NCBI RefSeq assembly: GCF_030505195.1
Contig: NZ_CP129672.1
Coordinates: forward strand, 4,808,501-4,872,500
Reading direction: 5' to 3'
Origin: Comamonas testosteroni
GTDB taxonomy: Bacteria > Pseudomonadota > Gammaproteobacteria > Burkholderiales > Burkholderiaceae_C
DNA: 64,000 nucleotides
This document shows, piece by piece, positions 10,232 through 60,000 of this stretch (position 1 is the first letter of the stretch; every line of letters begins with the position of its first letter). The position numbers and the translations under genes were made by a program. Under the pieces are notes generated by a model. The model was given only the letters and a program-made list of their open reading frames with translations, did not search any database and was not told the DNA's origin.

Positions 10232-11000
10232 CTATTTCTGAGGTGATCCGGCGTGAAGTATTTGATGACGACTTCACTGTAGGAGTGGGTCTGATTTCGC
10301 CTGATTGCGTTCGCTCCAACGAGAATAGCGAGAATGGATGCGGTATTGATTCTTGGTTTCTTTGATATAAGAACGAAATGAAAAGAATTGCCAATTCCAG
10401 GCGAAAAAATCGAACTTCGGCTGTTTGAGTGATTTTTGAAACAAATTCTTGCATGCGTTGTGCTAGATTTGCAATCGAATCCAGTTGTTTGATGGTATTG
10501 CCAGGAGATCAGCCATCAACGCACGGCTTCGCATGCAAGGTTATGCGTCAAGAACACCGGCCGGAAACCGGAGGCTCCGCCTTGCTATCGTGGAAAGGAA
10601 AATCTCCAAATGCGCTGTGTCTAGCCTATAGCCGCTTCACAGCCTGTCCGCGCGATTTGTCTGGCCAGGGGCTGACCTGTTCACTCCTTCACCACGGCTT
10701 TGTGGTGCTGCGCCAGGCAAAGTCATGGGTTTTGACGATCAGGCAACAAGCGTTGCCTGAGCTTCAATCTCGCGTGCGGCGCTGGCATGACGCCAAAGGC
10801 CGTGATCAAGAGAATTACAGAACTCCGTGTGACGAGTTCTGAGGCCGTATGCGATGCCTTGCCGGGCAGCAGCGAGCCTGTCCGCATCAACAACCAGCTT
10901 CCGCGGGAACGACTTTCAAGGTTGCACCGATTGCTCTCGCCAGCGTTCTGGCGGGTCAGCTGTCGCATTGCCCGGTCGGAGCCCAATGAGAGGGATATCA
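10232..11000. other. Long non-coding stretch upstream of the adhesin locus
   Basis: No convincing gene is seen. The first 250 bases are AT-richer than the rest. Several small perfect hairpins occur, for example AGGCAAC/GTTGCCT at 10741-10758, CACCACG/TGTGGTG near 10692-10708, and CGCCAG/CTGGCG near 10941-10960. The region probably carries the promoter and regulatory sites of the type I secretion operon. I looked for the conserved pattern of c-di-GMP riboswitches and did not find it. Confidence 0.5.
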
Positions 11001-29400: not shown

Positions 29401-32400
29401 GCCGCCATCGTCGACAGCCAAGGTCCGGGCGCTGACGTCCCGACCCTGGACGTCTCCGATCCAGGTACTGTCCACGAAGGCTCCGACGCCACGTTCGACA
29501 TCACGCTGGGCAAGGCCGTCGACGCCGCAACCACCATCACCTTCAAGCTGGGCGGTGACATCGAATCCGACGACATCGGCACGCCCGTGGTCACCATCGG
29601 TGGCACCACGGTCACCCTGGTGAACAACGGCAACGGCACCTACAGCTTCCAGGTCCCGGCCGGCACCACCGGCGGCATCGTGGTCACCGTTCCGACCACC
29701 GACGACGCCGTCTTCGAAGGCAGCGAGAAGCTGACCCTCGAAGCCACGCTGAGCGGCAAGACCGCCAGCGGCGTGGATCTGCCCGCCGGCATCACCGACA
29801 CCGGCAACGCCGCCATCGTCGACAGCCAAGGTCCGGGCGCTGACGTCCCGACCCTGGACGTCTCCGATCCAGGTACTGTCCACGAAGGCTCCGACGCCAC
29901 GTTCGACATCACGCTGGGCAAGGCCGTCGACGCCGCAACTACCATCACCTTCAAGCTGGGCGGTGACATCGCCTCCGACGACATCGGCACGCCCGTGGTC
30001 ACCATCGGTGGCACCACGGTCACCCTGGTGAACAACGGCAACGGCACCTACAGCTTCCAGGTCCCGGCCGGCACCACCGGCGGCATCGTGGTCACCGTTC
30101 CGACCAACGACGACGCCGTCTTCGAAGGCAGCGAGAAGCTGACCCTCGAAGCCACGCTGAGCGGCAAGACCGCCAGCGGCGTGGATCTGCCCGCCGGCAT
30201 CACCGACACCGGCAACGCCGCCATCGTCGACAGCCAAGGTCCGGGCGCTGACGTCCCGACCCTGGACGTCTCCGATCCAGGTACTGTCCACGAAGGCTCC
30301 GACGCCACGTTCGACATCACGCTGGGCAAGGCCGTCGACGCCGCAACCACCATCACCTTCAAGCTGGGCGGTGACATCGAATCCGACGACATCGGCACGC
30401 CCGTGGTCACCATCGGTGGCACCACGGTCACCCTGGTGAACAACGGCAACGGCACCTACAGCTTCCAGGTCCCGGCCGGCACCACCGGCGGCATCGTGGT
30501 CACCGTTCCGACCAACGACGACGCCGTCTTCGAAGGCAGCGAGAAGCTGACCCTCGAAGCCACGCTGAGCGGCAAGACCGCCAGCGGCGTGGATCTGCCC
30601 GCCGGCATCACCGACACCGGCAACGCCGCCATCGTCGACAGCCAAGGTCCGGGCGCTGACGTCCCGACCCTGGACGTCTCCGATCCAGGTACTGTCCACG
30701 AAGGCTCCGACGCCACGTTCGACATCACGCTGGGCAAGGCCGTCGACGCCGCAACCACCATCACCTTCAAGCTGGGCGGTGACATCGAATCCGACGACAT
30801 CGGCACGCCCGTGGTCACCATCGGTGGCACCACGGTCACCCTGGTGAACAACGGCAACGGCACCTACAGCTTCCAGGTCCCGGCCGGCACCACCGGCGGC
30901 ATCGTGGTCACCGTTCCGACCACCGACGACGCCGTCTTCGAAGGCAGCGAGAAGCTGACCCTCGAAGCCACGCTGAGCGGCAAGACCGCCAGCGGCGTGG
31001 ATCTGCCCGCCGGCATCACCGACACCGGCAACGCCGCCATCGTCGACAGCCAAGGTCCGGGCGCTGACGTCCCGACCCTGGACGTCTCCGATCCAGGTAC
31101 TGTCCACGAAGGCTCCGACGCCACGTTCGACATCACGCTGGGCAAGGCCGTCGACGCCGCAACCACCATCACCTTCAAGCTGGGCGGTGACATCGCCTCC
31201 GACGACATCGGCACGCCCGTGGTCACCATCGGTGGCACCACGGTCACCCTGGTGAACAACGGCAACGGCACCTACAGCTTCCAAGTCCCGGCCGGCACCA
31301 CCGGCGGCATCGTGGTCACCGTTCCGACCACCGACGACGCCGTCTTCGAAGGCAGCGAGAAGCTGACCCTCGAAGCCACGCTGAGCGGCAAGACCGCCAG
31401 CGGCGTGGATCTGCCCGCCGGCATCACCGACACCGGCAACGCCGCCATCGTCGACAGCCAAGGTCCGGGCGCTGACGTCCCGACCCTGGACGTCTCCGAT
31501 CCAGGTACTGTCCACGAAGGCTCCGACGCCACGTTCGACATCACGCTGGGCAAGGCCGTCGACGCCGCAACCACCATCACCTTCAAGCTGGGCGGTGACA
31601 TCGCCTCCGACGACATCGGCACGCCCGTGGTCACCATCGGTGGCACCACGGTCACCCTGGTGAACAACGGCAACGGCACCTACAGCTTCCAGGTCCCGGC
31701 CGGCACCACCGGCGGCATCGTGGTCACCGTTCCGACCAACGACGACGCCGTCTTCGAAGGCAGCGAGAAGCTGACCCTCGAAGCCACGCTGAGCGGCAAG
31801 ACCGCCAGCGGCGTGGATCTGCCCGCCGGCATCACCGACACCGGCAACGCCGCCATCGTCGACAGCCAAGGTCCGGGCGCTGACGTCCCGACCCTGGACG
31901 TCTCCGATCCAGGTACTGTCCACGAAGGCTCCGACGCCACGTTCGACATCACGCTGGGCAAGGCCGTCGACGCCGCAACCACCATCACCTTCAAGCTGGG
32001 CGGTGACATCGAATCCGACGACATCGGCACGCCCGTGGTCACCATCGGTGGCACCACGGTCACCCTGGTGAACAACGGCAACGGCACCTACAGCTTCCAG
32101 GTCCCGGCCGGCACCACCGGCGGCATCGTGGTCACCGTTCCGACCAACGACGACGCCGTCTTCGAAGGCAGCGAGAAGCTGACCCTCGAAGCCACGCTGA
32201 GCGGCAAGACCGCCAGCGGCGTGGATCTGCCCGCCGGCATCACCGACACCGGCAACGCCGCCATCGTCGACAGCCAAGGTCCGGGCGCTGACGTCCCGAC
32301 CCTGGACGTCTCCGATCCAGGTACTGTCCACGAAGGCTCCGACGCCACGTTCGACATCACGCTGGGCAAGGCCGTCGACGCCGCAACCACCATCACCTTC

Positions 32401-35400
32401 AAGCTGGGCGGTGACATCGAATCCGACGACATCGGCACGCCCGTGGTCACCATCGGTGGCACCACGGTCACCCTGGTGAACAACGGCAACGGCACCTACA
32501 GCTTCCAGGTCCCGGCCGGCACCACCGGCGGCATCGTGGTCACCGTTCCGACCAACGACGACGCCGTCTTCGAAGGCAGCGAGAAGCTGACCCTCGAAGC
32601 CACGCTGAGCGGCAAGACCGCCAGCGGCGTGGATCTGCCCGCCGGCATCACCGACACCGGCAACGCCGCCATCGTCGACAGCCAAGGTCCGGGCGCTGAC
32701 GTGCCCAAGCTGGATGTCAAGGATGCGGGCGATGTCATCGAAGGCAACGCAGCGAACTTCAACGTCAGCCTGGACAAGGCAGTTGATGCCGAAACCACGC
32801 TGACCTTCAAGCTCGGCGGCGAGATCACTGCGGCTGACTATGGTGTTCCCACTGTCAGTATCGGCGGCCAGTCCGTCACCGTCACTGCCAACGCCGACGG
32901 CACCTACAGCTTCAAGGTGCCCGCCGGCACCACAGGCGGCATCGTGGTCACAGTTCCGACCACGCCCGACGGCGTCTACGAAGGCCGTGAGAGCATGACC
33001 TTGACGGCGACGCTGACCGGCGCCACCGCCAGCGGCACCGCGCTGCCCTCGGGCATCACCGATAGCGGCAATGCTGCAATCGTCGACATCAACAAGCCGC
33101 CTGTCGTGGGGGGGGGGGACACGGCCGTCTCCGAAGAAGGCTTGGCTGGTGGCATCAAAGACAGCAACGGCACATCGGATACGACCGATTCGCCCCAGGC
33201 GAACGGCCAACTATCGATCACCGACGACAACAACGCTACCTACAGCATTACGCTGGTTGCGCCCGCCAATGGCGCCCTGACCTCCCACGGAACGCCCATA
33301 GTCTGGACGCTGTCCGACAGTGGACACACGCTGACGGGCCGTGCGGGCGGCACGGACGCCATCGTCATCAAGATCGACGATAACGGCGCCTATAACGTGA
33401 AGCTGCTGGCTCCGGTCGACCACCCCGACACCTCGCGTGAAGACACGCTGGGCCTGTCGGTCGGCGTCAAGGTGTCGGATGGCGTCAATCTGGCGGTGTC
33501 CACCAACATCAACATCACGATCGAGGACGACTCGCCGGTGGTGCAACCGAACGACCCCGTCTCGGTGCAGACCACGAACATCCCCGACGTCTACACGGGC
33601 AAGGTGAGTTTCGCTGGTTCCCAGACCAGCACCAACCAGATGAAGATGACCTTTGGCAATGGCGCGATTGAAGTCACGGCCAAGGGCTTCACGTCCAAAT
33701 CCGACGTCACGCTGATCGATGCCATGGTCAACCAAAGCAAGTCTGGCCTGGGTGTCGCAAGCACGGACTCGCCGTACCACAACATCGCCAATGAAATCGA
33801 CTATCGCAACACGACCGACGGCAAGGGCGCGTCCGAAGAACTGACCATACGCCTGACTGGTGGCAAGGTTGCCTATGGCGCCACTATCGATTTCGGCGCC
33901 ATGTACGGCGGCGAGGTGGAAAGCGGCGTCGCGAAGTTCTACCGCAATGGCGTGTTGATCGCCGAACGCACCTTCACCTCCGACCAGAACGGCGGCGACT
34001 ATGCGGCCAACTTCCGCGTCGAAGAAGGCGGTTTCGACACGATCGTGATTTCGGCCACGGACAACCACAAGAACTCGTCCAGCGACAACAGCGACTTCAC
34101 CGTCACCGGCATCACCTTCCTGGGTAGCAATACCGTCCAGGCCATCGCCTACGGCGAAGGCACGCTGAATTACGGCTACGGCGCCGACGGCGCAGGCCGT
34201 CTGGAACTGACGGGTGCGGAAGGCGGCCTGAAGACGCGCGACGGCGCGAACATCACGACGACGCTGAGCAACGGCAATCTGATCGAAGGCCGCGACCCGT
34301 CGGGCAATCTCATCTTCGAGATGCGCTTGACGCCGGCCACCGGCAAGTGGGAGTTCTATCAATACCAGCCCATGCAAGGCACCGCGGACGGCAAGCTCGA
34401 CTTCACCTACAAGGTGACGGATGCCGACGGTGACTCCACCGCTGGCCACTTCGAAGTGGCGGGTGTGGAACCTCCTGCTCCCAGCGTCAACATCGAGGAC
34501 TACAACCTCGCTGCGCCGGGCGCCATCAGCGTGTCGGAAGCTCTGGCCTCCGGTAGCGGCACGTTCACGATCACCGCGAGCGCAGGCCTGAAGTCGCTGA
34601 CGCTCGACGGCCCGGGCAACGCCGACGCGTCCCTGACGCTGGACCGTCTGGCCGACCTGGTGAACAATCCGGTCACGCTGACGACCAGCAAAGGCACGCT
34701 GACGCTGACCGGCTACGACCCGACGACCGGCAAGGTCAGCTACACCTACCAGACCAGCGGCCAGCAGGCGCACACCGGTGACGACACCAACGTGCAGGAC
34801 CACTTCCAGATTGCGGTGGAAGACAAGTTCGGCGGCAAGGCAACGGGCGACCTGGGCGTGCTGATCACCGACACGGCCCCCAGCCTCAAACCGATCGCGG
34901 AAAGCTCGGCGCTGTCTTCGCACGGCACCAACATCATGCTGACGCTGGATACGTCCGGCAGCATGAATTATGGCAGCGGCGTGTACAACGGTTGGACGCA
35001 GCTGTCGCGCCTGGCGGTACTGAAGTCCTCGGTCAACAACCTGCTCGACAAGTACGGCGAAGCCGGCGACGTCCGCGTGATGATCGTGGAGTTCAATACC
35101 TCAGCCTCGCAGAAGGGCGGCGGCTGGATGTCCCTGGCGGAAGCCAAGGCGCTGGTGAGCGGCCTTGGTTATGGCGGCGGCACCAACTACCAGACCGCGC
35201 TGGACACTGCGATGAATGCCTGGAACAACTCTGGCACGGGCAAGCTGGAGGGTGGCAACGTCCAGAACATCTCCTACTTCTTCACCGACGGAGAACCCGA
35301 TTCGAACCGTTCCGTCAATTCCGCCCAACAGGCGACGTGGGAAAAGTTCCTCGCGGACAACCATATCAACTCTTATGGCATCGGCCTGGGTACTGGCGCC

Positions 35401-46944: not shown

Positions 46945-46956
46945 TTTTTTTTGCCC

Positions 46957-48000
46957 ATGTCTGCACCCCAAAAGACGCCTTCAGGAAGCTGGCGGATACA
47001 GGTCTTCTACAAAGGCGCGCGTGACGCCGCAACCTTCCCTACGCAGCGCGAGGCGCGGGCGTGGGCCGATGCTCGTAGAACCGAGCTACGGGCTGCTGCA
47101 GAGGGCGGGACCGTGGCTGCCAAGATTCGCGGCGAAGCGTTCAATTTGAACGACGCTATGAAGAAGTATGGAGAGGAAGTTTCACCAGAAAAGCGCGGCG
47201 CCCGATGGGAGCTGCTTCGCATAGAAGCGATTACGACAAAGCACCCGCACTGGCCGGGCAAGAGGCGGATGGTAGATCTGGATGCCCAGGACCTTATTCA
47301 GTGGCGTGATGCTCGATTGAAGGCGGTGTCCAAAGGCACAGTGCTGCGTGAAATTGCATTGGTGAGCCATGTTCTCGATACCGCTCGCCAGGACTGGGGC
47401 TGGATCAGCAGCAATCCCATGGCTGATGTACGCAGGCCAAAAACGCCCGATCATCGGGAGCGAATCATCGCGGGTCCAGAGATCCGTGCCATGCTGAGGC
47501 AACTGGAATGGACGAGAGGCAGGAGAGCGACCACTACAAAGCATGCTGTGGCACATTGCTTTATTGCCGCTCTGCAAACTGGGATGCGCGCCAGCGAGAT
47601 CGCTAATTTAGAGTGGGATGATGTGCGAGACTCATTCTGTATATTGCATACAGGTCGCACGAAGACGGGTAAAGGGCGCCAGGTCCCATTGACCCATGCC
47701 GCACGCAGAAACATCGAAATGATGCGTGGGTTTCATGATGTGCTGGTGTTCGGCGTGGAGGCTGCATCACTTGACGCGCTGTTCCGCCGTCACCGAGCTA
47801 AAGCCGAGCTGGACGGGTTCACCTTTCACGACACCCGACACACAGCAGCGACCCGTATGGCTCAGGTGCTGCATGTGCTGGATCTGTGCAAAGCGTTTGG
47901 GTGGACGGATACGAAGCGCGCGCTAACGTATTACAACCCCACGGGATCTGATATTGCCGCACGGCTTAACGCTGGGCGCGCCGCGACTCCCATTCAATGA
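46957..48000 (+). CDS. Prophage tyrosine-recombinase integrase
   Basis: A 347-residue site-specific recombinase for integration and excision. The catalytic residues are visible: Arg211 in TGMRASE, the HxxR box His291-Arg294 in FHDTRHTAATR and the nucleophile in LTYY (Tyr325 or 326). The N terminus is an arm-type binding region (SGSWRIQVFYKGARDA). The start ATG 46957 is preferred to an in-frame TTG at 46951. It faces the tRNA-type attachment site and overlaps the 3' end of the excisionase-like gene on the other strand by 35 bp. Confidence 0.95.
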   Translation: MSAPQKTPSGSWRIQVFYKGARDAATFPTQREARAWADARRTELRAAAEGGTVAAKIRGEAFNLNDAMKKYGEEVSPEKRGARWELLRIEAITTKHPHWPGKRRMVDLDAQDLIQWRDARLKAVSKGTVLREIALVSHVLDTARQDWGWISSNPMADVRRPKTPDHRERIIAGPEIRAMLRQLEWTRGRRATTTKHAVAHCFIAALQTGMRASEIANLEWDDVRDSFCILHTGRTKTGKGRQVPLTHAARRNIEMMRGFHDVLVFGVEAASLDALFRRHRAKAELDGFTFHDTRHTAATRMAQVLHVLDLCKAFGWTDTKRALTYYNPTGSDIAARLNAGRAATPIQ

Positions 48001-50218: not shown

Positions 50219-50974
50219 TCAGGCGGTGTATTCCTGCTCTGCGATTTCGCATGTGACGCCGCAGGCCGGCAGCCACTCCTTGCGGTCGGCCTTGCCTGCA
50301 GGCAACTGGTGGAGGGGGAAGCGCTGTCCCTTCAGCGGACCGGAGCGGTGGCGCAGGATGTAGGCACCTGGGCCGATCTCGGCTTCCACGTCTGCAAGCC
50401 GCTTGAACTCTTCCGGATAGTCTTCGCGGATGGCTCTGAAGTAGCCAGCGCCGCCCTTGACGCAGCCGATGCAGTTGGCGTTCTGATAGCCCTGCAGGTA
50501 CATGAATGGCAAGGTGATGCCCGCGCGCTCAACCATGGTCTTGCAGTCGGTCTTCGTGAGCCCGCGCTCAATGAGCGGTGCGACTACAGGGCGTTCTGGG
50601 TAGGCTTCTTGAAAGTCGTCCAGGCGCCACTGTTCGTCAGCGGTGTAGCCCAACACCAGTACATCGCCGGGCTGCTCGAATGTGCGCAGTAGGTCACGTT
50701 TCAGCCTCTTGGTGCAGGAAGCACCTTGTCGGCCCTTGATGTAGCGAGTGCGGCGGAACACCTCGATTGGGTCCGCACCGTACTTCTCATCACGCAGGAT
50801 TACAACCTTGCGTCCGAACCAGGCCTCGCAGTCGGCCAGGAATCGACGGTTATCGACGTGTTCACCAGCTAGAAAGGCATTGATGATTTCGCAATGGTCG
50901 CCGTACTGAGCGATAGCGAGCTTGGTGGCTACTGCTGAGGCGGCGCCACATGAAAATTGGCAAACAGTTCGCAT
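50219..50974 (-). CDS. PAPS-reductase-like PP-loop protein of the prophage
   Basis: A 251-residue protein of the phosphoadenosine phosphosulfate reductase/adenine nucleotide alpha-hydrolase superfamily. The N-terminal ATP-binding loop is FSCGAASAV, where the usual SGGxDS has changed to SCGAAS. Later conserved features include GYTADEQWR, NCIGCVKGG and a C-terminal ACGVTCE. Phage members are common and have been linked to nucleic-acid sulfur or base modification, but no function is proven for this one; it is not a core sulfate-assimilation gene judging by context. The start at 50974 follows CTGGAG and a terminator; a longer frame to 51085 crosses that terminator. Confidence 0.82.
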   Translation of the reverse strand: MRTVCQFSCGAASAVATKLAIAQYGDHCEIINAFLAGEHVDNRRFLADCEAWFGRKVVILRDEKYGADPIEVFRRTRYIKGRQGASCTKRLKRDLLRTFEQPGDVLVLGYTADEQWRLDDFQEAYPERPVVAPLIERGLTKTDCKTMVERAGITLPFMYLQGYQNANCIGCVKGGAGYFRAIREDYPEEFKRLADVEAEIGPGAYILRHRSGPLKGQRFPLHQLPAGKADRKEWLPACGVTCEIAEQEYTA

Positions 50975-50989
50975 AGGGCTCCAGAAAGC

Positions 50990-51012
50990 AAAAAGCCCGC
51001 TCAGTGGCGGGC
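50990..51012 (-). terminator. Terminator directly upstream of the PAPS-reductase-like gene
   Basis: GCCCGC (50995-51000) pairs with GCGGGC (51007-51012); the minus strand then has five T residues, CTTTCTGGAG and the ATG at 50974. Confidence 0.82.
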
Positions 51013-51245
51013 CGTTTAGGTATGGAAGTGAGGTGAGGAGGTATAGAGACGCTTTGTGCGTGTGCTTTTGCGCCTGTGATGGCACTTAGAGACATAGTGT
51101 CTGGCAATGGATCTCTTTGCACCGGTAGGCTAGTTGCTGTACCTTATGAACGGCAGTGTTGACCTGCTCTTTTCTCAAGGAGACGGGCTTCTCATACTGA
51201 TTAACCAGATTCGCAAGGCAGTGTGCTGACTGCAAGGAGGCCGTG

Positions 51246-51651: not shown

Positions 51652-52623
51652 TTAGCCGTTGCTTTCACATCTGCCCTGGAGTGATGCGTGGCCGCTGGCG
51701 CTGGCAGCCAGCGCGGCAGGCAGGTCGCCCAGGCTGGTGCGGCCTTCGCCGCCCAGGGCTTCGATCAGGTCGGGAATCAGGCGCGACAGCTCGCCCGTGG
51801 CAATGGCCACATCGGTATCAAAGCCGCTGTCGTCCTGGCTGTTGCCATCCATGACTGCATCCAGTAGCGTGATGTTCTTGATCTGCAGGCCTTCGGTCAG
51901 CACAAAGCTCACCCGGTCGTCCCAGGTCATGGCCAGCTTGGTAGGGCGCTTGCCGTGCTCGATGTGCTGGCGCATCTCATCGATATCCAGCGGGTGGCGG
52001 GCGTAGCGCACGATTGCCTTGGACTCGTCCGCAGCCTTCAGCTCCGTTTCGCGGTCGGCGGTGAATCCGGCGGGCGGCTCCTGCGTCATCAGCCAATGCG
52101 CCATGGCGGCCTGTGGGCTGGTCTGGGTATCCAGCAGAGCCAGGGCAAAGCCGGGCAGGCATTCAACCAGCAGCGTTACCACCTCGTCAGCGCGCCCCTG
52201 GGCGCTGGTATCGAGCACCAGAGTGCGCGCCTGCGGGTCGATCCAGACCCACATGCTGCCCTGCTTGGTGAAGGCCATGGGCAGCAGATCCAGCTTGGCC
52301 TCTTCCTTGAGCTCTCGCTTTTCCTTCTTGCCAGGCTTGCGGCCTTCGGTCTTTTCGATGTGCGCGGCCTTTTCCTCGACCTTGCGATTGAGCACGCTGG
52401 CCGGCAGCACCTTGGCCTCGGTCATGAAGCACATCACCCACTGGCCGGCCACGGACTCGACCAGTAGGCCGTGCTGCTCGCCGCGCGGCGGAACCCAGCC
52501 CACAGAGCGCTCTTGGGTCGCGCCGCACTCGGCAAAGACTGTCTTCTGCAGGGCATCCTCCAGCACCTGCAGATCGCCTTGCCAGCTCTCGGCAATGCGG
52601 TAAATGATCATGTTCTTGAACAT
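51652..52623 (-). CDS. rdgC: Recombination-associated protein RdgC
   Basis: A 323-residue homologue of RdgC, a ring-shaped DNA-binding protein that limits RecA. The N terminus MFKNMIIYRI and segments ERSVGWVPPRG, WVWIDPQARTLVLDTS and ALLDTQTSPQAAMAHWL are typical. Here it belongs to the prophage leftward region, where phage copies may modulate recombination. The C terminus is slightly longer than the ~300-residue host form. The start at 52623 follows CTGGAG and a terminator hairpin; a longer frame to 52692 would read through that hairpin. Confidence 0.92.
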   Translation of the reverse strand: MFKNMIIYRIAESWQGDLQVLEDALQKTVFAECGATQERSVGWVPPRGEQHGLLVESVAGQWVMCFMTEAKVLPASVLNRKVEEKAAHIEKTEGRKPGKKEKRELKEEAKLDLLPMAFTKQGSMWVWIDPQARTLVLDTSAQGRADEVVTLLVECLPGFALALLDTQTSPQAAMAHWLMTQEPPAGFTADRETELKAADESKAIVRYARHPLDIDEMRQHIEHGKRPTKLAMTWDDRVSFVLTEGLQIKNITLLDAVMDGNSQDDSGFDTDVAIATGELSRLIPDLIEALGGEGRTSLGDLPAALAASASGHASLQGRCESNG

Positions 52624-52638
52624 CGGAACTCCAGAAAG

Positions 52639-52661
52639 ACAAAGCCCGCTTAGCAGCGGGC
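52639..52661 (-). terminator. Terminator directly upstream of rdgC
   Basis: GCCCGC (52644-52649) pairs with GCGGGC (52656-52661); the minus strand then reads TTTGTCTTTCTGGAG and the ATG at 52623, the same module seen upstream of other leftward genes. Confidence 0.8.
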
Positions 52662-52764
52662 AGTCGGGTGATTGGGGTGTTGTGCAGTGCAACGGAACAT
52701 CGAATTACATGGGGCATCTGCAGTGGGAATAGGCTGAATGCAGCCACTTACTTAAAGGGTCACC

Positions 52765-53493: not shown

Positions 53494-53830
53494 GGAGTCT
53501 CCTGTGGACGAAGAAAAAGCCCGCGAGCGGTTGCTGCGGGCTTGAATAAAGAGCCGGTGACCTTTCGGTCTTGCCTGGGTGAGCTAAAAAGGGAGTGAAA
53601 AGTTGCCCCAAGCCCGGCGAAACAGGTAAACGACGCAGCAGTTTTCCCATGGTTAAAGAAAAGGTTCTGCGCCCTCTGGCGTGACCACTGTCGCTCACGA
53701 CGCAAAGCGCCGTGCTCCCAATTGACAGCAGCCCAGGCCCATTCCTGAGATGCCGTACCTGCTTGAGTGGCCACACCGGATGGCTCTGACTTTGGTTTAA
53801 AAGAAGCCACCCCGCGAAGGGTGGCTTAAA
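53385..53830. repeat. Direct duplication, copy A
   Basis: This segment is an imperfect copy of 53985-54430, offset 582 bp. Shared blocks include the small membrane-protein start, the terminator GCCCGCGAGCGNTTGCTGCGGGC type hairpin, GAGCCGGTGACC, CCCAGGCCCATTCCTGA and CCGTACCTGCTTGAGTGG. The right half has leftward open frames (EPSGVATQAGTASQEWAWA) but frame differences between copies suggest it is not an intact gene. Confidence 0.7.
53513..53543 (-). terminator. Terminator upstream of the 45-residue membrane protein gene
   Basis: AAGCCCGC (53517-53524) pairs with GCGGGCTT (53536-53543); T-rich on the minus strand, followed by AGGAGA and the ATG at 53493. Confidence 0.82.
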
Positions 53831-53984
53831 GAGGCTTTTCTCACACCTGAGTAGCTGCGCTCATTCAAAGACATCAATTAAGGTGAATGCTTTCACCAAT
53901 TGCAGACCCTGTCAGTATTTTCTATTGATAGAAGCAAATTAATACACATTTACTATTTTGATGAACCCGCTATAGCCCTGCGAG

Positions 53985-54075
53985 GGAAGGTACATTCGAG
54001 GCCTAAGCCTGTAAGTGCCTATTGCTTGGCGAGTAGCAGTTTTGCCGTGCAGGTGGTGGTTGGACTCGAGTGCAT
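53985..54075 (-). pseudogene. Decayed paralogue of the 45-residue membrane protein gene
   Basis: Starting at 54075 behind AGGAGA, the frame reads MHSSPTTTCTAKLLLAKQ and then stops at TAG (54019-54021) where the intact copy has TGG. After the stop the frame continues ALTGLGLECT, matching ALTGFGLFCLV of the intact gene, so a nonsense mutation broke the gene. Confidence 0.75.
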
Positions 54076-54094
54076 GGGTCTCCTGTGGGCAATA

Positions 54095-54125
54095 GAAAAA
54101 GCCCGCGAGCGATTGCTGCGGGCTT
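54095..54125 (-). terminator. Terminator upstream of the decayed paralogue
   Basis: AAGCCCGC (54099-54106) pairs with GCGGGCTT (54118-54125); T-rich on the minus strand. Confidence 0.8.
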
Positions 54126-54540
54126 GAATAAAGAGCCGGTGACCCTTTCGGGCCACGCCTGGGGAAGAGGTCAGAAAGGGAGGGAGGAAAGATCCCAGGC
54201 CCGGCGTAACAGGTAGATGGGGGCGAATTCTGCACGATGCTTTTCAGGCAATCAATAGGAGTTCGGCTTACCTAAAACTGGTGCTGCGCCATCTGGTGTG
54301 ACCACTGTCGCCTAGTTCGTAATTGCCGTCAGCCCAGGCCCATTCCTGAACTGCCGTACCTGCTTGAGTGGTCACGCCGGATGGCTCTGCGTAGTTCGCA
54401 GAGGAAGAGGGCCCTTTAAGTTGCTCCTCTTAAACCTTTCCCAGCTAGAAATCTATTTCGATTGGATTTTTTCCAACATGCAATGTTGGATGCAACATCC
54501 TGAGTAATGATGAAGCTCTGAAAATTTAGGAGCCTACCCA

Positions 54541-55776
54541 GTGAGTCTCAACAACGTGTTCAAGTTTGTGGCAGTGGTATTGCTGTCATTAACGCTTGCA
54601 GGATGCGGGCAGTCGCTGATCACTGCCGTAGCTGTCAACCAGCTTAGTTCTGAAACGCCTGAGAGCGTTGGAGAGGTTGCCTCCAAGTACCGAAGTCAAT
54701 CTTGTGCTGAACTTGCCTCAGAACGAGAGCATGCGCTAAGTGAGACCACTCGCATTGGTGAACACACGGAATACTCCCAAAAGCGCGGCAGATGGAAATT
54801 GGCTGTAGTGGAGCAAGTTGAGAAGGAGAAAGGATGCGTGCTTGGCATCTCTTCCAGTGAGGCTCACATCCTTGAATTCATTTCCAAGAACCCCAGTACT
54901 GCGAAAGAGCTTGATTCAAAGCTCAAATCACCTGCAGCAAGGAAAGCCTTAGCTGCATTAGTTGCCCCTTCTCAGACGTCTAAATCGAAGACTCCGCCAT
55001 CTAGGACTGAACAAGCGCAATCCGGTAAGCCTAAGAGCTCCGCTCCCGTGCCTGCTAAAACAAAAGAGGCAAAGTCCAGGATTTCTGAGGAATCCGGTGT
55101 CGCAAGTCAGGCTGCTTCAGGAGTCTCTTCATCTGCACGTGGCTGGCTTGGAGTCTCATTGCTAGAAGTTCCCATCACCCCGGTCTTAGCCGCATCTTTG
55201 GGGCTGTCTGAACCTATGGGTGTGTTTGTACAAGGTGCCGTTAAAGACTCAGCGGCCGGCCGGGCTGGAATGCGATCATTGGATGTCATTTTGTCCGCTG
55301 ACGACAAAGAGTACAACAGCGGAGATGCATTGAAGACCTATTTGGTTTCTTTGCGAGCGGGCCATAAATTGAATCTCAAGGTTTGGCGAAATCGTTCAGC
55401 ACAAATCCTAAATATCACCCTTTCCGATACACAGCCAGATGCAATGCTTCCGACAAATAGAGAGGGCTATTGTTATGTTATCGCCATGCCTCCCATGGAT
55501 GGGACAAAAAAGTTAGTTTGGGTTAGCGATATATTCCCCGTTGCTGATAAAAAATCTCAGCTTTACTCTCGAGGTCAGGTTGCTGGCGAAGCATTTGCGA
55601 AATTTCTTCAACAGGAAAAGGTTCCTCAAGCTTCCGATCTCAAAGGATTGGGCATGTGCAGTCCTAGCTTGAATTCTCTTACTACTTCGTGGAATGCTGA
55701 ACTCGCTAGCTACAGTGCTCCAGCATTTAAGGCAACGGGCTCAGAAGGCGTCCTGCTCTATTGGCAGCCATCTTGA
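54541..55776 (+). CDS. PDZ-domain lipoprotein, unknown
   Basis: A 411-residue lipoprotein: signal MSLNNVFKFVAVVLLSLTLA with lipobox LAGC (Cys22), a helical region, a Ser/Pro/Lys-rich linker (about 145-190), a PDZ domain (about 198-295, GWLGVSLLEVPITPVLAASL, then AGRAGMRSLDVILSAD) and a C-terminal domain of unknown fold. No protease domain is present. The GTG start follows TAGGAG. It is AT-richer than its surroundings and lies between duplication copy B and a third remnant, so it probably entered as an accessory gene carried by the prophage. It may assist or regulate an envelope process; function unknown. Confidence 0.82.
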   Translation: MSLNNVFKFVAVVLLSLTLAGCGQSLITAVAVNQLSSETPESVGEVASKYRSQSCAELASEREHALSETTRIGEHTEYSQKRGRWKLAVVEQVEKEKGCVLGISSSEAHILEFISKNPSTAKELDSKLKSPAARKALAALVAPSQTSKSKTPPSRTEQAQSGKPKSSAPVPAKTKEAKSRISEESGVASQAASGVSSSARGWLGVSLLEVPITPVLAASLGLSEPMGVFVQGAVKDSAAGRAGMRSLDVILSADDKEYNSGDALKTYLVSLRAGHKLNLKVWRNRSAQILNITLSDTQPDAMLPTNREGYCYVIAMPPMDGTKKLVWVSDIFPVADKKSQLYSRGQVAGEAFAKFLQQEKVPQASDLKGLGMCSPSLNSLTTSWNAELASYSAPAFKATGSEGVLLYWQPS

Positions 55777-55797
55777 TTTACTTCGCATGTAAATCAA
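55773..55797 (+). terminator. Hairpin at the end of the PDZ-lipoprotein gene
   Basis: TTGATTTAC (55773-55781) pairs with GTAAATCAA (55789-55797), overlapping the stop codon. There is no T-run, so termination strength is doubtful. Confidence 0.5.
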
Positions 55798-55952
55798 GAC
55801 TTCTGATGCGACCTCGCTTTTCATTGCAGAGGAGTGAGTTCGCTGAAAGCTTCCCATGGTCACACCGGATGGCCCCGCTAAGCCCTGCGGGGGAAGGCAC
55901 ATGCATGCCGCATGCTGGCTAAACGCTCACATCTCAAGATATCCGGGCACAA

Positions 55953-55978
55953 AAAAGCCACCTTAGAAGGTGGCTTTT
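55953..55978. terminator. Bidirectional terminator, small-ORF cassette type
   Basis: AAAAGCCACCTT (55953-55964) pairs perfectly with AAGGTGGCTTTT (55967-55978). It closes the leftward small-ORF group and may also end the rightward PDZ-lipoprotein message. A near-identical hairpin is at 56827-56849. Confidence 0.9.
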
Positions 55979-56020
55979 GAAAATGAAGCCCTTAATCGTG
56001 TGGGCTGTCGAGCACTCTTG

Positions 56021-56203
56021 CTACCAGAACCGATAGCTATGGCGCATGCGCGATTGCCTCTCTTTTTGCCTTCGTTTGTTTTTTTCGGGAGGTCCGCACT
56101 GCTCGATGTTGGGTGGACTGGGGAGTAGCTCGCCTCTGGCGAAGACTCGTCTGACTGTTCTCCAAACCTTCAGGAATGAAGATGGGATGCGGCTTGCTGA
56201 CAT
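56021..56203 (-). CDS. Small cassette ORF 1
   Basis: A 60-residue basic protein: an amphipathic N-terminal part (SFLKVWRTVRRVFARGELLP) followed by a Pro- and Lys/Arg-rich tail. The ATG (56203) is preceded by CCGGAGGTCTAT, the leader shared by the five neighbouring ORFs, though its palindrome is imperfect. It resembles the others in layout: hydrophobic/amphipathic start, Pro-rich middle, charged tail. It is the last gene of a probable three-gene leftward unit ending at the terminator 55953-55978. Function unknown. Confidence 0.6.
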   Translation of the reverse strand: MSASRIPSSFLKVWRTVRRVFARGELLPSPPNIEQCGPPEKNKRRQKERQSRMRHSYRFW

Positions 56204-56219
56204 ATAGACCTCCGGACTG
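56204..56219 (-). promoter_or_regulatory. Shared ribosome-binding leader, copy 1
   Basis: On the minus strand CAGTCCGGAGGTCTAT immediately precedes the ATG of small ORF 1. Compared with the other copies the upstream palindrome arm has diverged. Confidence 0.7.
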
Positions 56220-56264
56220 ACACGCGCGAGCTACGGGGGCTCGCTGCGTCTCCGTGTGGTGCTG

Positions 56265-56444
56265 TCACGCCTTGTCGTTGACAGCAGGTGCTTCGGAGCT
56301 GGGCTGTGGGGCTTTTGGCGTCGTCGCGAGTGCTTGATCGAGACTGGGTTCGATGGGTTGAATCTTTGAAATCGGCTCGAGGAGCATCACCCACATATCA
56401 CGCCAGAACTCGGACTGACGTTTGTAGCCAAGTAGTGAAAACAT
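56265..56444 (-). CDS. Small cassette ORF 2
   Basis: A 59-residue protein beginning MFSLLGYKRQSEFWRDMWVM followed by LLEPISKIQP, a Pro/Ala/Ser-rich linker and the end NDKA. It is a clear paralogue of ORF 4 (56894-57073): same length, shared FWRDMW, LEPIS and terminal DKA, and identical leader. The N-terminal aromatic helix could associate with membrane or a partner protein. No family recognised. Confidence 0.75.
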   Translation of the reverse strand: MFSLLGYKRQSEFWRDMWVMLLEPISKIQPIEPSLDQALATTPKAPQPSSEAPAVNDKA

Positions 56445-56459
56445 ATAGACCTCCGGTCA
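56445..56459 (-). promoter_or_regulatory. Shared ribosome-binding leader, copy 2
   Basis: TGACCGGAGGTCTAT directly precedes the ATG of ORF 2. GACC and GGTC can pair around GGA, partly hiding the GGAGGT ribosome site. Confidence 0.75.
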
Positions 56460-56468
56460 GATGCTTGC

Positions 56469-56687
56469 TCAAGCGGCAGAGATTTTGTTGAGGACCGCTT
56501 GCAGCAAAAGGCGGTTCGTTTTTTTGCGCAGCATCTGCTCAGGTGATTCTTCCTGCAGCTGTGCATCCGTTTGAAATGGCGTGTGAAAGATTCGGTCGTC
56601 ATCCGCCGCGTTCCGGGATTCGACGTCCTGTTTCGCGACGGGAAGTCGCGAGCGGATGTTAAAGATGGTTTTGTTGATGAAAGACAT
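56469..56687 (-). CDS. Small cassette ORF 3
   Basis: A 72-residue protein, MSFINKTIFNIRSRLPVAKQ at the start, an acidic middle (AADDDRIF) and a helical C terminus (RKKTNRLLLQAVLNKISAA). Preceded by the shared leader and, 52 bp further up, by the conserved upstream block, so it heads the ORF 3-2-1 unit. Only 9 bp separate its stop from the leader of ORF 2. Not recognised. Confidence 0.72.
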   Translation of the reverse strand: MSFINKTIFNIRSRLPVAKQDVESRNAADDDRIFHTPFQTDAQLQEESPEQMLRKKTNRLLLQAVLNKISAA

Positions 56688-56703
56688 ATAGACCTCCGGT
56701 CTA
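56688..56703 (-). promoter_or_regulatory. Shared ribosome-binding leader, copy 3
   Basis: ATAGACCGGAGGTCTAT precedes the ATG of ORF 3: a palindrome TAGACC-GGA-GGTCTA containing the ribosome site. Confidence 0.82.
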
Positions 56704-56738
56704 TTCTGGCGGTCCAAGATAGGCCGTCTCACACCACA

Positions 56739-56767
56739 GTACTCCTTTTAATGCCCTTAAACGGAGC
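56739..56767 (-). promoter_or_regulatory. Conserved upstream block, copy 1
   Basis: On the minus strand CGTTTAAGGGCATTAAAAGG continues to AGTAC. Related blocks lie at 57124-57153 and 57463-57490, each 51-52 bp from the start codon of its ORF, while sequence between block and leader is not conserved. It is probably a promoter or operator. Confidence 0.68.
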
Positions 56768-56826
56768 GCTCAAAGCTCACGTCAGGAATGAACTGCGGGG
56801 CGTCATTCGCAGTCGCTTTCCCAACG

Positions 56827-56849
56827 AAAAGCCACCTTGAAAGGTGGCT
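56827..56849 (-). terminator. Terminator after small ORF 4
   Basis: AGCCACCTT (56830-56838) pairs with AAGGTGGCT (56841-56849), with TTTTC following on the minus strand. Nearly identical to the hairpin at 55953-55978. Confidence 0.82.
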
Positions 56850-56893
56850 CAGGATCCGGATTTCGTGCTCTTCAGGCTTAAGGAGCCGTTGAG

Positions 56894-57073
56894 TCAGGCC
56901 TTGTCCGTGGTTGCCTCTGCATGGTGCGCGGGCTGCTGCGCTTCAGGCTTGCCGGAAGGCTCTTGGCCGAAACTTGAAGGGCTTGGCGGAAGCTCAGAAA
57001 TGGGCTCGAGGATGATCGACCACATGTCGCGCCAGAATGCGACATACCTCTGGTACACAAGGAGTGGAAACAT
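56894..57073 (-). CDS. Small cassette ORF 4
   Basis: A 59-residue paralogue of ORF 2: MFPLLVYQRYVAFWRDMWSI then ILEPISELPPSPS, a Gln/Ala/His-rich linker and terminal TDKA. It has its own upstream block (57124-57153), palindromic leader and terminator (56827-56849), so it appears to be a self-contained cassette. Conservation between the two copies at protein level, with linker divergence, argues that both are real genes. Function unknown. Confidence 0.78.
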   Translation of the reverse strand: MFPLLVYQRYVAFWRDMWSIILEPISELPPSPSSFGQEPSGKPEAQQPAHHAEATTDKA

Positions 57074-57090
57074 ATAGACCTCCGGTCTAA
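57074..57090 (-). promoter_or_regulatory. Shared ribosome-binding leader, copy 4
   Basis: TTAGACCGGAGGTCTAT precedes the ATG of ORF 4; perfect TAGACC/GGTCTA arms around GGA. Confidence 0.82.
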
Positions 57091-57123
57091 AGCAGCAAAT
57101 CAGGATGACTTACATGTGTCCAC

Positions 57124-57153
57124 GGTACGCTTTTTTAAGACCTTAAACGCTGC
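57124..57153 (-). promoter_or_regulatory. Conserved upstream block, copy 2
   Basis: Minus strand: CGTTTAAGGTCTTAAAAAAG, continuing CGTACC; 51 bp before the ATG of ORF 4. Confidence 0.68.
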
Positions 57154-57250
57154 TGGAAAACAACCGAGAAGGTGGCTTGGCCGCTCTTTCTAAACGGCTG
57201 CTCGACGCAACCATTCCAGCCCTGACGCGACAAAACGCCTCACCATATCG

Positions 57251-57412
57251 CTACTGCTTGCGTTGCTGCTGCTGTTCTTCCTCGTTCCTTTTCTTCGGTA
57301 CGCGCGGTTTGCCTTGTTGCTGTGGGGCTGGGAGCCCATCCGTGAAAAAGAACATCAGCTTCAAGGTGTCCAAAAAGGATGGGGTAGAGATGGGAATGGG
57401 GTTACTTAACAA
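57251..57412 (-). CDS. Small cassette ORF 5, TTG start
   Basis: A 53-residue protein: hydrophobic/aromatic start (SFLDTLKLMFFFTDGLPAPQ) and a Gln/Lys/Glu-rich tail (EEEQQQQRKQ). The leader is the same as for the other cassettes, but at the position of the ATG stands TTG (57412). A longer in-frame start upstream would translate through the leader and is rejected. Layout of aromatic helix, Pro-rich turn and charged tail matches the other cassette ORFs. Confidence 0.66.
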   Translation of the reverse strand: MLSNPIPISTPSFLDTLKLMFFFTDGLPAPQQQGKPRVPKKRNEEEQQQQRKQ

Positions 57413-57429
57413 GTAGACCTCCGGTCTAA
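57413..57429 (-). promoter_or_regulatory. Shared ribosome-binding leader, copy 5
   Basis: TTAGACCGGAGGTCTAC precedes TTG; the palindrome is perfect, and only the ATATG end is changed to ACTTG. Confidence 0.8.
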
Positions 57430-57462
57430 GGTGGCTGATCAAGATTGATTGCCTTGTCCCAA

Positions 57463-57490
57463 GGTACTCTTTTAAATGACCTTAAACGGG
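57463..57490 (-). promoter_or_regulatory. Conserved upstream block, copy 3
   Basis: Minus strand: CGTTTAAGGTCATTTAAAAG, continuing AGTACC; 51 bp before the TTG of ORF 5. Confidence 0.68.
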
Positions 57491-57533
57491 GCCCTTGAAA
57501 AATACATACCCCACCATGTTGTCGCAGCTGCGG

Positions 57534-57713
57534 TCAGTCGATGAAGCCGAGGTCGCGCAGCGCTTCTGTCTCTTGGGTGTACTCTGCGTCCGCGATCAGC
57601 AGCGTGCCGTCTGGGCCATAAATATTGCGCTGTGGCGCGCCCATGACTTGCTCAATGCGTTCGACTTTGTAGCCGTGCCGCTCCCAGATTTCGGTGGTGT
57701 TTATGCGTGTCAT
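57534..57713 (-). CDS. Small prophage protein, unknown
   Basis: A 59-residue soluble protein (MTRINTTEIWERHGYKVERI..., TLLIADAEYTQETEAL). A pattern of a charged helix followed by a short beta segment (RNIYGPDGTLLIAD) suggests a compact folded protein. Start chosen at 57713 rather than 57749 because the latter lies in an 11-bp hairpin (57728-57761). It is leftward, between the small-ORF cassettes and the pL-type promoter. Family not recognised. Confidence 0.68.
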   Translation of the reverse strand: MTRINTTEIWERHGYKVERIEQVMGAPQRNIYGPDGTLLIADAEYTQETEALRDLGFID

Positions 57714-57775
57714 GGATTCACTGTACCCAAACCGAAGCCCTGCAAGCAAAGCTTTGGTTTGCGCCCTGATCTCGC

Positions 57776-58100
57776 TCAGGGGCTGGCGCTGCTTGCGCAG
57801 ATGCGTGCATGTGGCGGCGTCACCTGGTGTAAGAGGGCGGGCGACTCCTCAAACCATCGGCCAACTTTGATCCCGTGCCGGCTTTCGTGCGGCTTTCTAC
57901 GCCTGCCTGTGATTGGCAGTTGCTGGGCCGGGTCACCCGGCCTATTCATCTCGCATGTGTTCTCCTTCGCAGCGCGCGGCTGCCTGGTTGGGATGCTTTC
58001 GCTGGCATCGATTCAGCAGTGCTCTGGTCTCACGCGTTGCACTTCCTTCCGCGCGCAGTCCCCGAATGCGATTTGCTTGAAATCGACCCGGCTTGAACAT
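57776..58100 (-). other. Two overlapping small leftward frames, doubtful
   Basis: A 52-codon frame (58100-57942, MFKPGRFQANRIRGLRAEGS...) ends inside the start of a 57-codon frame (57949-57776, MNRPGDPAQQLPITGRRRKP...), with stop and ATG overlapping in ATGAATAG. Both products are Arg-rich, and neither has a good ribosome site at the right distance, though GGAG lies 13 bases before the second. They may be real coupled genes or chance frames. Confidence 0.35.
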
Positions 58101-59271: not shown

Positions 59272-60000
59272 TTACAGCCTTTTTCCATTCCAGGCCCAAA
59301 CCACCCGACCCACCACATCCACTTGATGATCACCATTCAGTGTTTGCACAGTCTTGGCGCTGGGGTTGTCGCTTGTAACCTGCAGCTTGCCGTCAAAGGT
59401 CGGGGTGACGCGCTTAACGAAAGTTCGGTCATTCGCCCGCAAAACGTAGACGCCTTCACGTGAGCTGGGATCGCGTGCACTGAGCCCGGTATCTACGAGC
59501 AGAACATCACCGTCTGTAAAGGTTGGATGCATGCTGTCGCCGTAGGCATGGATGAAGCGTAGCTCTTGTGGGTTCTGAGGTCTGATCTGCTGATTGATCC
59601 AGTGTGGAGACAGGGCCAAGTCACCCACAATGACATCTGACTCCAGCAACTCGGAACCGGGGCCCATGCTGCCGCAGTTAGAGAGCAAAGGAACAATTAC
59701 AGCGTCAGGTGCGCGATACATCGGAACAGCACCGTATGCCGCCATGTCTATCTCACGCGTAGCAGAAGAGGGTGGCACTTCCAGCAGCGATGCGACATCC
59801 AAGTCGCGGGATTCGTCTTCAAGCATCTCCACACTCATGCCTAGGCCACGGGCGATGAGGGTTGCGAACTTTGAACGGCTGCTGTCTCGATTCTCGAGTG
59901 CGGAGATTGTCCCAACCTCCACGCCAGATCGCTCAGAGAGCTGCTCAAGGGTGAGTCCTGCTTTTTCTCGGTAGTGACGAATACGGGTGCCTAGTGCCAT
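59272..60000 (-). CDS. CI/LexA-type prophage repressor
   Basis: A 242-residue lysogeny repressor. The N-terminal HTH (RIRHYREKAGLTLEQLSERS, then EVGTISALENR) occupies about residues 5-60; the C-terminal S24 peptidase domain has catalytic Ser156 in YGDSMHPTF and Lys196 in TFVKRV, allowing RecA-stimulated self-cleavage. A Cys-Gly at 109-110 could be the cleavage site. It is divergent from the Cro-like gene across an 82-bp operator region, the classic switch layout. Start ATG 60000 lies at the first HTH residue; no strong ribosome site, so it may be weakly translated or leaderless. Confidence 0.95.
   Translation of the reverse strand: MALGTRIRHYREKAGLTLEQLSERSGVEVGTISALENRDSSRSKFATLIARGLGMSVEMLEDESRDLDVASLLEVPPSSATREIDMAAYGAVPMYRAPDAVIVPLLSNCGSMGPGSELLESDVIVGDLALSPHWINQQIRPQNPQELRFIHAYGDSMHPTFTDGDVLLVDTGLSARDPSSREGVYVLRANDRTFVKRVTPTFDGKLQVTSDNPSAKTVQTLNGDHQVDVVGRVVWAWNGKRL

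Follow-up and report, generated by a model that had tools for sequence, protein, structure and literature searches.

Five small open reading frames (ORFs) stand in a row on the minus strand, at 57490 to 55953 of a 64-kb window of the Comamonas testosteroni chromosome (the window being the whole 64,000-nucleotide [nt] stretch that was analyzed). They are probably part of a dispersed module that resides in prophages and other variable parts of Comamonas genomes and places the expression of micro-proteins under a gate, a reading to which we give a probability of roughly 60%. The ORFs encode 53, 59, 72, 59, and 60 amino acids (57412 to 56021), and every one begins 1 nt past the palindrome GACCGGAGGTCTA or a form of it with one mismatch. 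With up to two mismatches allowed, GACCGGAGGTCTA matched five times in the 64 kb, always at the array, against 0.86 matches expected, and none of 100 shuffles reached five. The first-pass annotation had described five small ORFs behind palindromic leaders, which this count bears out; it had also given all of them an ATG start, and ORF1 starts with TTG. ORFs 1, 2, 4, and 5 can be aligned as a single protein family (A) and ORF3 belongs to a second (B), a closer relationship than the general layout that the annotation had seen in the ORFs other than 2 and 4, whose standing as paralogues is upheld by a repeat identity of 71%.

Control appears to be shared as well, as had been proposed, through the same promoter block and two-hairpin leader. 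Units 1 to 3 have in common an 87-nt block, present as a direct repeat of 62 to 72% identity, and TTTAAGGTCATTAAAA, with up to three mismatches, was matched three times in the window against 0.04 expected. Two further copies of GACCGGAGGTCTA lie about 0.45 and 0.52 Mb away in the same genome (loci L005 and L007), each before an ORF related to one in the array. When the leader was searched for with a covariance model, 69 places were returned from 25 of the 53 genomes sampled in the genus, so that the leader is not confined to a local duplication.

Putative promoter block and two-hairpin leader

The second block, CGGTTTwAGG, 17 base pairs (bp), and TAcTGT, is present upstream of units 1, 2, and 3, three units as the first-pass annotation had counted, and absent from units 4 and 5. 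From its sequence it is best read as a promoter and so as part of the shared control, a role that the annotation had not given it. The block lies at 57461 to 57489 in unit 1 (CCGTTT-17-TACCTT) and at 57122 to 57150 in unit 2 (GCGTTT-17-TACCGT), both placed by repeat alignment and a promoter matrix, and at 56736 to 56764 in unit 3 (CCGTTT-17-TACTGT, placed by the matrix), where it would serve ORFs 3 to 5. The first, second, and sixth positions (T1, A2, and T6) of the −10 hexamer TAnnnT were invariant in 25 leaders, selected by eye out of 39 because they carry the block. When 46 of 47 leaders were anchored on TAnnnT, the hexamer read T in 45, A in 45, C in 30, T in 30, G in 43, and T in 46 of 46, with G at −1 in a fraction of 0.96 and at −3 in 0.98; CGGTTT ended 17 bp upstream, and the TTT at the −35 place was found at 0.83 to 0.93. 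A matrix built on 11 sites, used for a rough check of the window, gave the three known sites as its sole strong matches. We infer that the transcript begins about 7 nt past TAcTGT, just before hairpin 1. An alternative −10, TAAAAA, was replaced after a wider alignment, and a GTAAGT-like stretch was seen further upstream in part of the leader set.

The array is predicted to be three transcription units, holding ORF1, ORF2, and ORF3-4-5, because units 3 to 5 own one promoter block and one terminator. Terminators follow units of the window and of several relatives. The terminators past ORF2 (GCCACCTTTCAAGGTGGCTTTT, 56827 to 56849) and past ORF5 (55953 to 55975), both identified by repeat comparison, are intact, in keeping with the terminators reported between units; the third, past ORF1 (57155 to 57177), is degenerate in the window and intact in L009 and L141, where GCCACC..GGTGGCTTTT stands immediately upstream of the unit 2 equivalent.

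The promoter block is followed by a 5' untranslated region of about 42 nt that holds two hairpins. Hairpin 1, placed by covariation, lies at 57433 to 57453 in unit 1 (GGCAATCaatcttGATCaGCC), at 57094 to 57114 in unit 2 (ends approximate), and at 56708 to 56728 in unit 3. Across the 25 leaders, compensatory double changes occurred at all seven of its pairs, its shape being kept and its sequence varying, and the 22 double-change cells compare with 8.2 ± 2.2 in shuffled data (0 of 500 as high). Translational attenuation through a leader peptide in hairpin 1, GTG-GGx-xxA-GGC-RAT-CCA-TCY-TGA, had looked striking in the first leaders, and the GTG is in place in 34 of 47, with a stop at codon 7 (0-based) in 13. 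The count over the 47 led us to abandon this very improbable candidate: 11 have a Shine-Dalgarno sequence for the peptide, no stop precedes the main start in 14, the other stops vary, and the GTG shares letters with the −10 and would fall upstream of the predicted start site of the transcript.

Hairpin 2 is the palindrome itself, and it pairs half of the Shine-Dalgarno sequence. It has the form TAGACC-GGA-GGTCTA in units 1 to 3 (57414 to 57428, 57075 to 57089, and 56689 to 56703), assigned by motif count and covariation. The unit 4 palindrome (CTGACC.., 56446 to 56458) starts about 10 nt past the ORF3 stop, and that of unit 5 (CAGTCC.., GTCCGGAGGTCTA) lies at 56205 to 56217. Leader sets found by the palindrome itself are biased for it, and the 25-leader set, chosen in this way, showed G-U changes only; sets obtained with the family A profile, by the covariance model, or through proteins are less biased. 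In a 45-leader set, which omits two of the 47, 89.3% of cells were paired against at most 40% in slid registers, and the covariation score was 0.152 against at most 0.076 when slid (13 of 500 shuffles as high). Six double-change cells were found against 2.2 in shuffled data (9 of 500 as high), a number that slid registers equal, with 5 to 6 such cells at 3 to 4 pairs. The covariation check called for in the first-pass annotation thus lends hairpin 2 modest support. Diverged palindromes returned by the covariance-model search were GGACC/GGTCC in L230, L231, and L236, AAGACC/GGTCTT in L233, and AAAC(AGGA)GTTT in L236, and swaps that preserve pairing took AGACC/GGTCT to GGACC/GGTCC and TAGACC/GGTCTA to AAGACC/GGTCTT.

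A conserved palindrome over a ribosome site could instead be a DNA operator bound by a repressor. The core, GACCGGAGGTC, is strongly conserved, many units have perfect dyads, and S24 repressors lie near five of the loci examined (the window, L138, L144, and L149, plus L148 by clustering). However, several changes retain pairing solely as G-U, the Shine-Dalgarno sequence and its complement account for the core, some coupled cistrons lack the arm, and the adjacent hairpin 1 covaries, with a bulge. An operator in place of an RNA lock is therefore quite unlikely in our view.

When leaders were folded from the predicted start, the best structure had a local hairpin over the Shine-Dalgarno sequence in 39 of 44 (three of the 47 were left unfolded). 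Among 58 distinct genes chosen through their proteins, a stem of at least 4 pairs covered the Shine-Dalgarno sequence in 38 of the 41 scored as promoter-bearing and in 9 of the 17 others, the promoter call being a regular expression that was wrong in at least two rows (L214 MLTISK in, L150 out). These gene counts, like the group counts below, exclude 42 unrelated genome-contig loci and the weak loci L093 to L095. An RNA thermometer would likewise hold the Shine-Dalgarno sequence inside the hairpin at the 3' end of the leader, but GGU pairing in the models of four leaders was still 95% or higher at 50°C, and this very improbable idea was abandoned on those models. A CsrA-type site was also set aside, as the GGA of the triloop lacks the ANGGA context.

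The gating mechanism suggested by this architecture is plausible, not proven. The mRNA would begin as hairpin 1, which would protect the 5' end and leave little free landing site. Hairpin 2 would pair the GGU of GGAGGU and display GGA in a triloop, and translation of the first cistron would be kept low until a factor, whether RNA, protein, or ribosome, opened it. Following cistrons, at distances of 10 to 34 nt, would be translated by coupling, with one lock setting the whole operon.

Besides the slid registers and the misassigned promoters, several results weigh against a gated module of this kind. For the promoter, the TAnnnT anchor partly builds in the values of 45/46, 45/46, and 46/46, and one leader of the 47 failed to anchor; at a fixed offset from GGAG, with no anchor, the T, A, and T were found in 21 of 39 units (operon units included). 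The −10 sequences at L058 3007 (GCAGGT) and L069 6217 (TCTCGT) depart from the pattern, the −35 CGGTTT does not fit the sigma-70 consensus, and a sigma-70 promoter scan left these sites uncalled. For the RNA, folding that took in some 50 nt further upstream gave hairpin 2 in 21 of 39 best structures by our own count, and the remaining 18, including window units 1 and 5, paired otherwise. Hairpin 2 is modeled at just −5.4 kcal/mol at 37°C with its GGA unpaired, and work on coat-gene hairpins indicates that such strength may repress little. Nor is the lock structurally unique, because control ribosome sites form comparable stems: at least 4 pairs in 95 of 223 controls against 42 of 47 leaders, and at least 6 pairs in 31 of 223 against 30 of 47. 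Three of the 41 promoter-proximal genes are without a lock, and no factor that opens hairpin 2 was found.

The low stability of hairpin 2 and the mostly unpaired GGA in the modeled leaders of units 2 and 3 and of one relative would also suit an unregulated, high-output leader, in which hairpin 1 stabilizes the 5' end, the loop of hairpin 2 presents the Shine-Dalgarno sequence, and expression is constitutive once transcribed; GGAG is retained in nearly all 45 leaders. An upstream arm that complements GGU would be superfluous for such presentation, yet pairing survives some changes, and B genes directly behind A (L013, L136, and L145) are without the arm whereas promoter-proximal ones mostly have it. 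We regard constitutive output as unlikely.

Micro-protein families A and B

The family A ORFs lie at 57251 to 57412 (ORF1), 56894 to 57073 (ORF2), 56265 to 56444 (ORF4), and 56021 to 56203 (ORF5), and ORF3, of family B, lies at 56469 to 56687. All five assignments draw on the ratio of nonsynonymous to synonymous substitution rates (dN/dS), together with alignment for ORFs 1, 2, 3, and 5, a structure model for ORF2, a protein search for ORF3, and repeat comparison for ORF4. Pooled dN/dS in seven orthologue sets was 0.11, 0.20, 0.26, 0.41, 0.23, 0.22, and 0.23, computed on modal-length alleles (which omitted 1 of 7 in ORF1 and 1 of 8 in ORF3) and over pairs that are not independent. By this measure both families evolve as translated coding genes under purifying selection, in agreement with the earlier view that these are real micro-proteins. 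Frame decay in relatives, which that view had proposed as a check, was confined to one G018 copy that appears frame-shifted by our own reading; frames were otherwise open.

In family A (alignment A2, 27 rows), W13/14 is nearly invariant within an FWxxxKxxF pattern, followed by a proline-rich turn and a variable charged tail. AlphaFold modeled ORF2 as a helix from residue 2 to 25 and then disorder, at low confidence (mean pLDDT 61.8, pTM 0.31). Hydrophobic moments of the helix, taken from the best window, were high in some members (0.76 and 0.55) and unremarkable in others (0.28 and 0.31). Family B (alignments A3, 13 rows, and A5, 32 rows) is acidic, with the core PDVDSH....DDY. As a guess, family A would probably act by its N-terminal helix on the membrane surface or on a partner protein, and acidic family B may be the partner or counterweight of A. 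Recurrent C termini in family A were INRDA, (V/A)ND(K/R)(A/P/T), HNV(T/F/V), and RMRH.YR.W. Off the array, family A-like ORFs beginning MHELSQ.. or MQELSQ..FWANLKCMFFPW occur at L058 7818 and L017 6408 (+), with neither lock nor promoter block.

Small proteins encoded in several copies by mobile elements, on structured mRNAs that cover the ribosome site, are features of type I toxin mRNAs such as Hok, TisB, Ldr, and ZorO (for ZorO, see PMC3919570). The array shares the small ORFs, the several copies, and the association with mobile elements, and its conserved local hairpin may likewise cover the ribosome site, although that hairpin is weak, leaves half of the site in the loop, and is missing from 18 of 39 best structures folded with upstream sequence. 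The units could encode small toxins whose silent, structured mRNAs are repressed by an unseen antisense RNA. However, no membrane-spanning toxin was seen: the highest mean hydropathy over 19 residues in six family A proteins was 0.47, well short of a strongly hydrophobic span. The array also has two protein families, one of them acidic, and no antisense RNA is known for it, no search having been aimed at antisense promoters or RNA. A type I toxin-antitoxin system is in our view an improbable explanation.

Three other comparisons are partial. Lambda cIII resembles the family A units in its length of about 54 amino acids, its amphipathic helix, its place in the left operon, and, if the proposed gate exists, control of its translation by mRNA structure; unlike cIII, the array units also occur outside prophages and in arrays, and 27 family A members had no Pfam match to it. 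The DUF1127 family (see PMC12218461) combines small proteins with a regulated leader, but the scanned members of families A and B were without a Pfam match to that family. Phage morons, like the units, are small extra genes that bring a promoter and a terminator of their own into a prophage, whereas the units have a shared leader RNA, paralogous arrays, and copies outside prophages.

The earlier suggestion of an expandable system is supported by array lengths, which differ at related loci: the window, L009, and L140 have five units, L146 has three, L141 has two, and L133 has a single one, its unit 1 standing directly before a relative of the last terminator. Family profiles run on small ORFs gave 48 non-nested groups, with recurrent forms A..A..B(24 nt)A(59-62)A, A(14-19)B(12-13)A, A(17)B, and single A. 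An A-like ORF lies 10 to 34 nt downstream in 10 of 19 queried family B entries (judged by eye, two entries being the same gene), and downstream cistrons are often without their own promoter or their own lock. Four B genes located 14 to 19 nt behind A were scored for the stem, two more A-B pairs (L028 and L030) not being among those scored; L013, L136, and L145 have no stem and L143 has a different, G-U-rich one. The stem-less B genes fit coupling in place of the lock.

Distribution, genomic context, and database searches

Beyond the covariance model, exact matches to the 17-mer leader plus ATG were found in 17 viral-contig stretches on 13 contigs. In genome contigs, GACCGGAGGTCTANRTG matched 52 stretches, of which 10 are Comamonas and include every multiple match; the 42 single matches in unrelated organisms were assumed to be chance, as were those in L093 to L095. 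Scanning 200 genomes of the taxonomic family for the palindrome returned matches in 4, and that in G159 is not before a small ORF. Within the genus, the family A profile had 61 matches, spread over 20 of the 53 genomes; it also matched 2 of 6 in the G018 genus, and 6 of 299 genomes of the taxonomic family, three of them (G063, G257, and G282) doubtful, with weak matches inside longer frames. Among 349 genomes of the order, the leader covariance model found the genome of the window alone, in a search that scored 13 candidates per genome and may have missed weak leaders. Protein searches at an E value of at most 1 returned 36 proteins of family A and 41 of family B, including a few fragments or weak matches; Comamonas, Acidovorax, and Delftia were the organisms given, with most sources carrying no name, and the named relatives that have the leader are Comamonas.

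In the window, the array sits in what its neighbors mark as the left arm of a lambda-like prophage. To one side are an ORF that reads as integrase-like (46951 to 48000), a PAPS reductase (50219 to 51085), and a match to 'exonuclease recombination-associated' (51652 to 52692); to the other are an S24 repressor (59272 to 60000), a YdaS/Cro-type gene, an antirepressor, and replication genes. The prophage setting implied in the first-pass annotation holds for this array and some copies, with others elsewhere on the chromosome. The units are judged to reside in prophages and in other chromosome regions because of the genes that neighbor other copies: COX15 and a chemotaxis receptor (L133), SDR and EamA (L134), an amino acid kinase with ACT domains and ArsB (L135), a transposase-like protein (L136), a phage tail tip protein (L137), a group II intron maturase (L139), RelA/SpoT (L143), and LysR (L150). 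Flank searches around the solitary copies L134 and L135 found relatives that match the neighboring gene and not the cassette, and the match coordinates gave no clean insertion boundary. The stretch upstream of the solitary L134 cassette, 10259 to 10523, has matches elsewhere in several of the genomes from the genus.

A different repeat set lies nearby in the window, with two copies (81, 54, 32, and 22 nt; 77 to 96% identical) at 53497 to 54389 that carry a GCCCGC..GCGGGC-TTTTT hairpin and a Shine-Dalgarno sequence right before a small ORF; further copies occur near cassettes in L009, L011, L015, and L133. At 54283 to 54390 there is an inverted repeat with 24-nt arms, 83% complementary and 60 nt apart. 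Far from the array, a giant repetitive ORF of 6,521 amino acids (17488 to 37053), adhesin-like by reading, has an antisense frame of 5,249 amino acids.

The earlier statement that the array matched no known system stands for the libraries as searched. Pfam gave no convincing match to the five window ORFs at E of at most 1 (ORF1 and ORF3 also with longer upstream starts) and one stray match (DUF4643, E 0.039) to 13 family B and 27 family A members, the latter at E of at most 10; in these scans the Lambda CIII family went unmatched by the five ORFs and the 27 family A members, and DUF1127 by the 13 and 27 members. PHROGs had no match to the window ORFs or the 13 family B members, NCBIfam gave the 27 family A members one stray match (E 0.08), PADLOC-DB 2.0.0 had 0 matches at 0.01 to 10 window proteins that included the five ORFs, and a PDB sequence search with family A returned nothing better than an E of at least 0.094. 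Rfam 15 at gathering score matched tRNA alone in the window. At E of at most 1, it placed a subthreshold RNAI match (22.8 bits, gathering 47), probably by chance, at 55949 to 55999, over the last terminator, in a search of 55900 to 57600. ORF2 found no phage match by tblastn, and blastn with 55700 to 58000 matched no plasmid and one phage, Acidovorax phage AP1, which matches just the region upstream of the array. Where proteins of the two families are named, they are called 'hypothetical' or 'uncharacterized' only. In the literature, no description was found among the matches listed, a set drawn from partial text in which subscription papers are mostly outside coverage, so that absence is unproven.

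Two protein families and one leader RNA are thus without a convincing entry in the libraries searched, and a stereotyped leader reveals a regulon from sequence alone. A more ambitious proposal, which we hold tentatively and at less than even odds, is that Comamonas and near relatives harbor an undescribed mobile-element system in which helical A and acidic B proteins are paired in expandable arrays behind a common promoter and two-hairpin gate that would answer to one opening signal. If A and B do act together, prophages and islands would be exchanging a small-protein module of a new kind.

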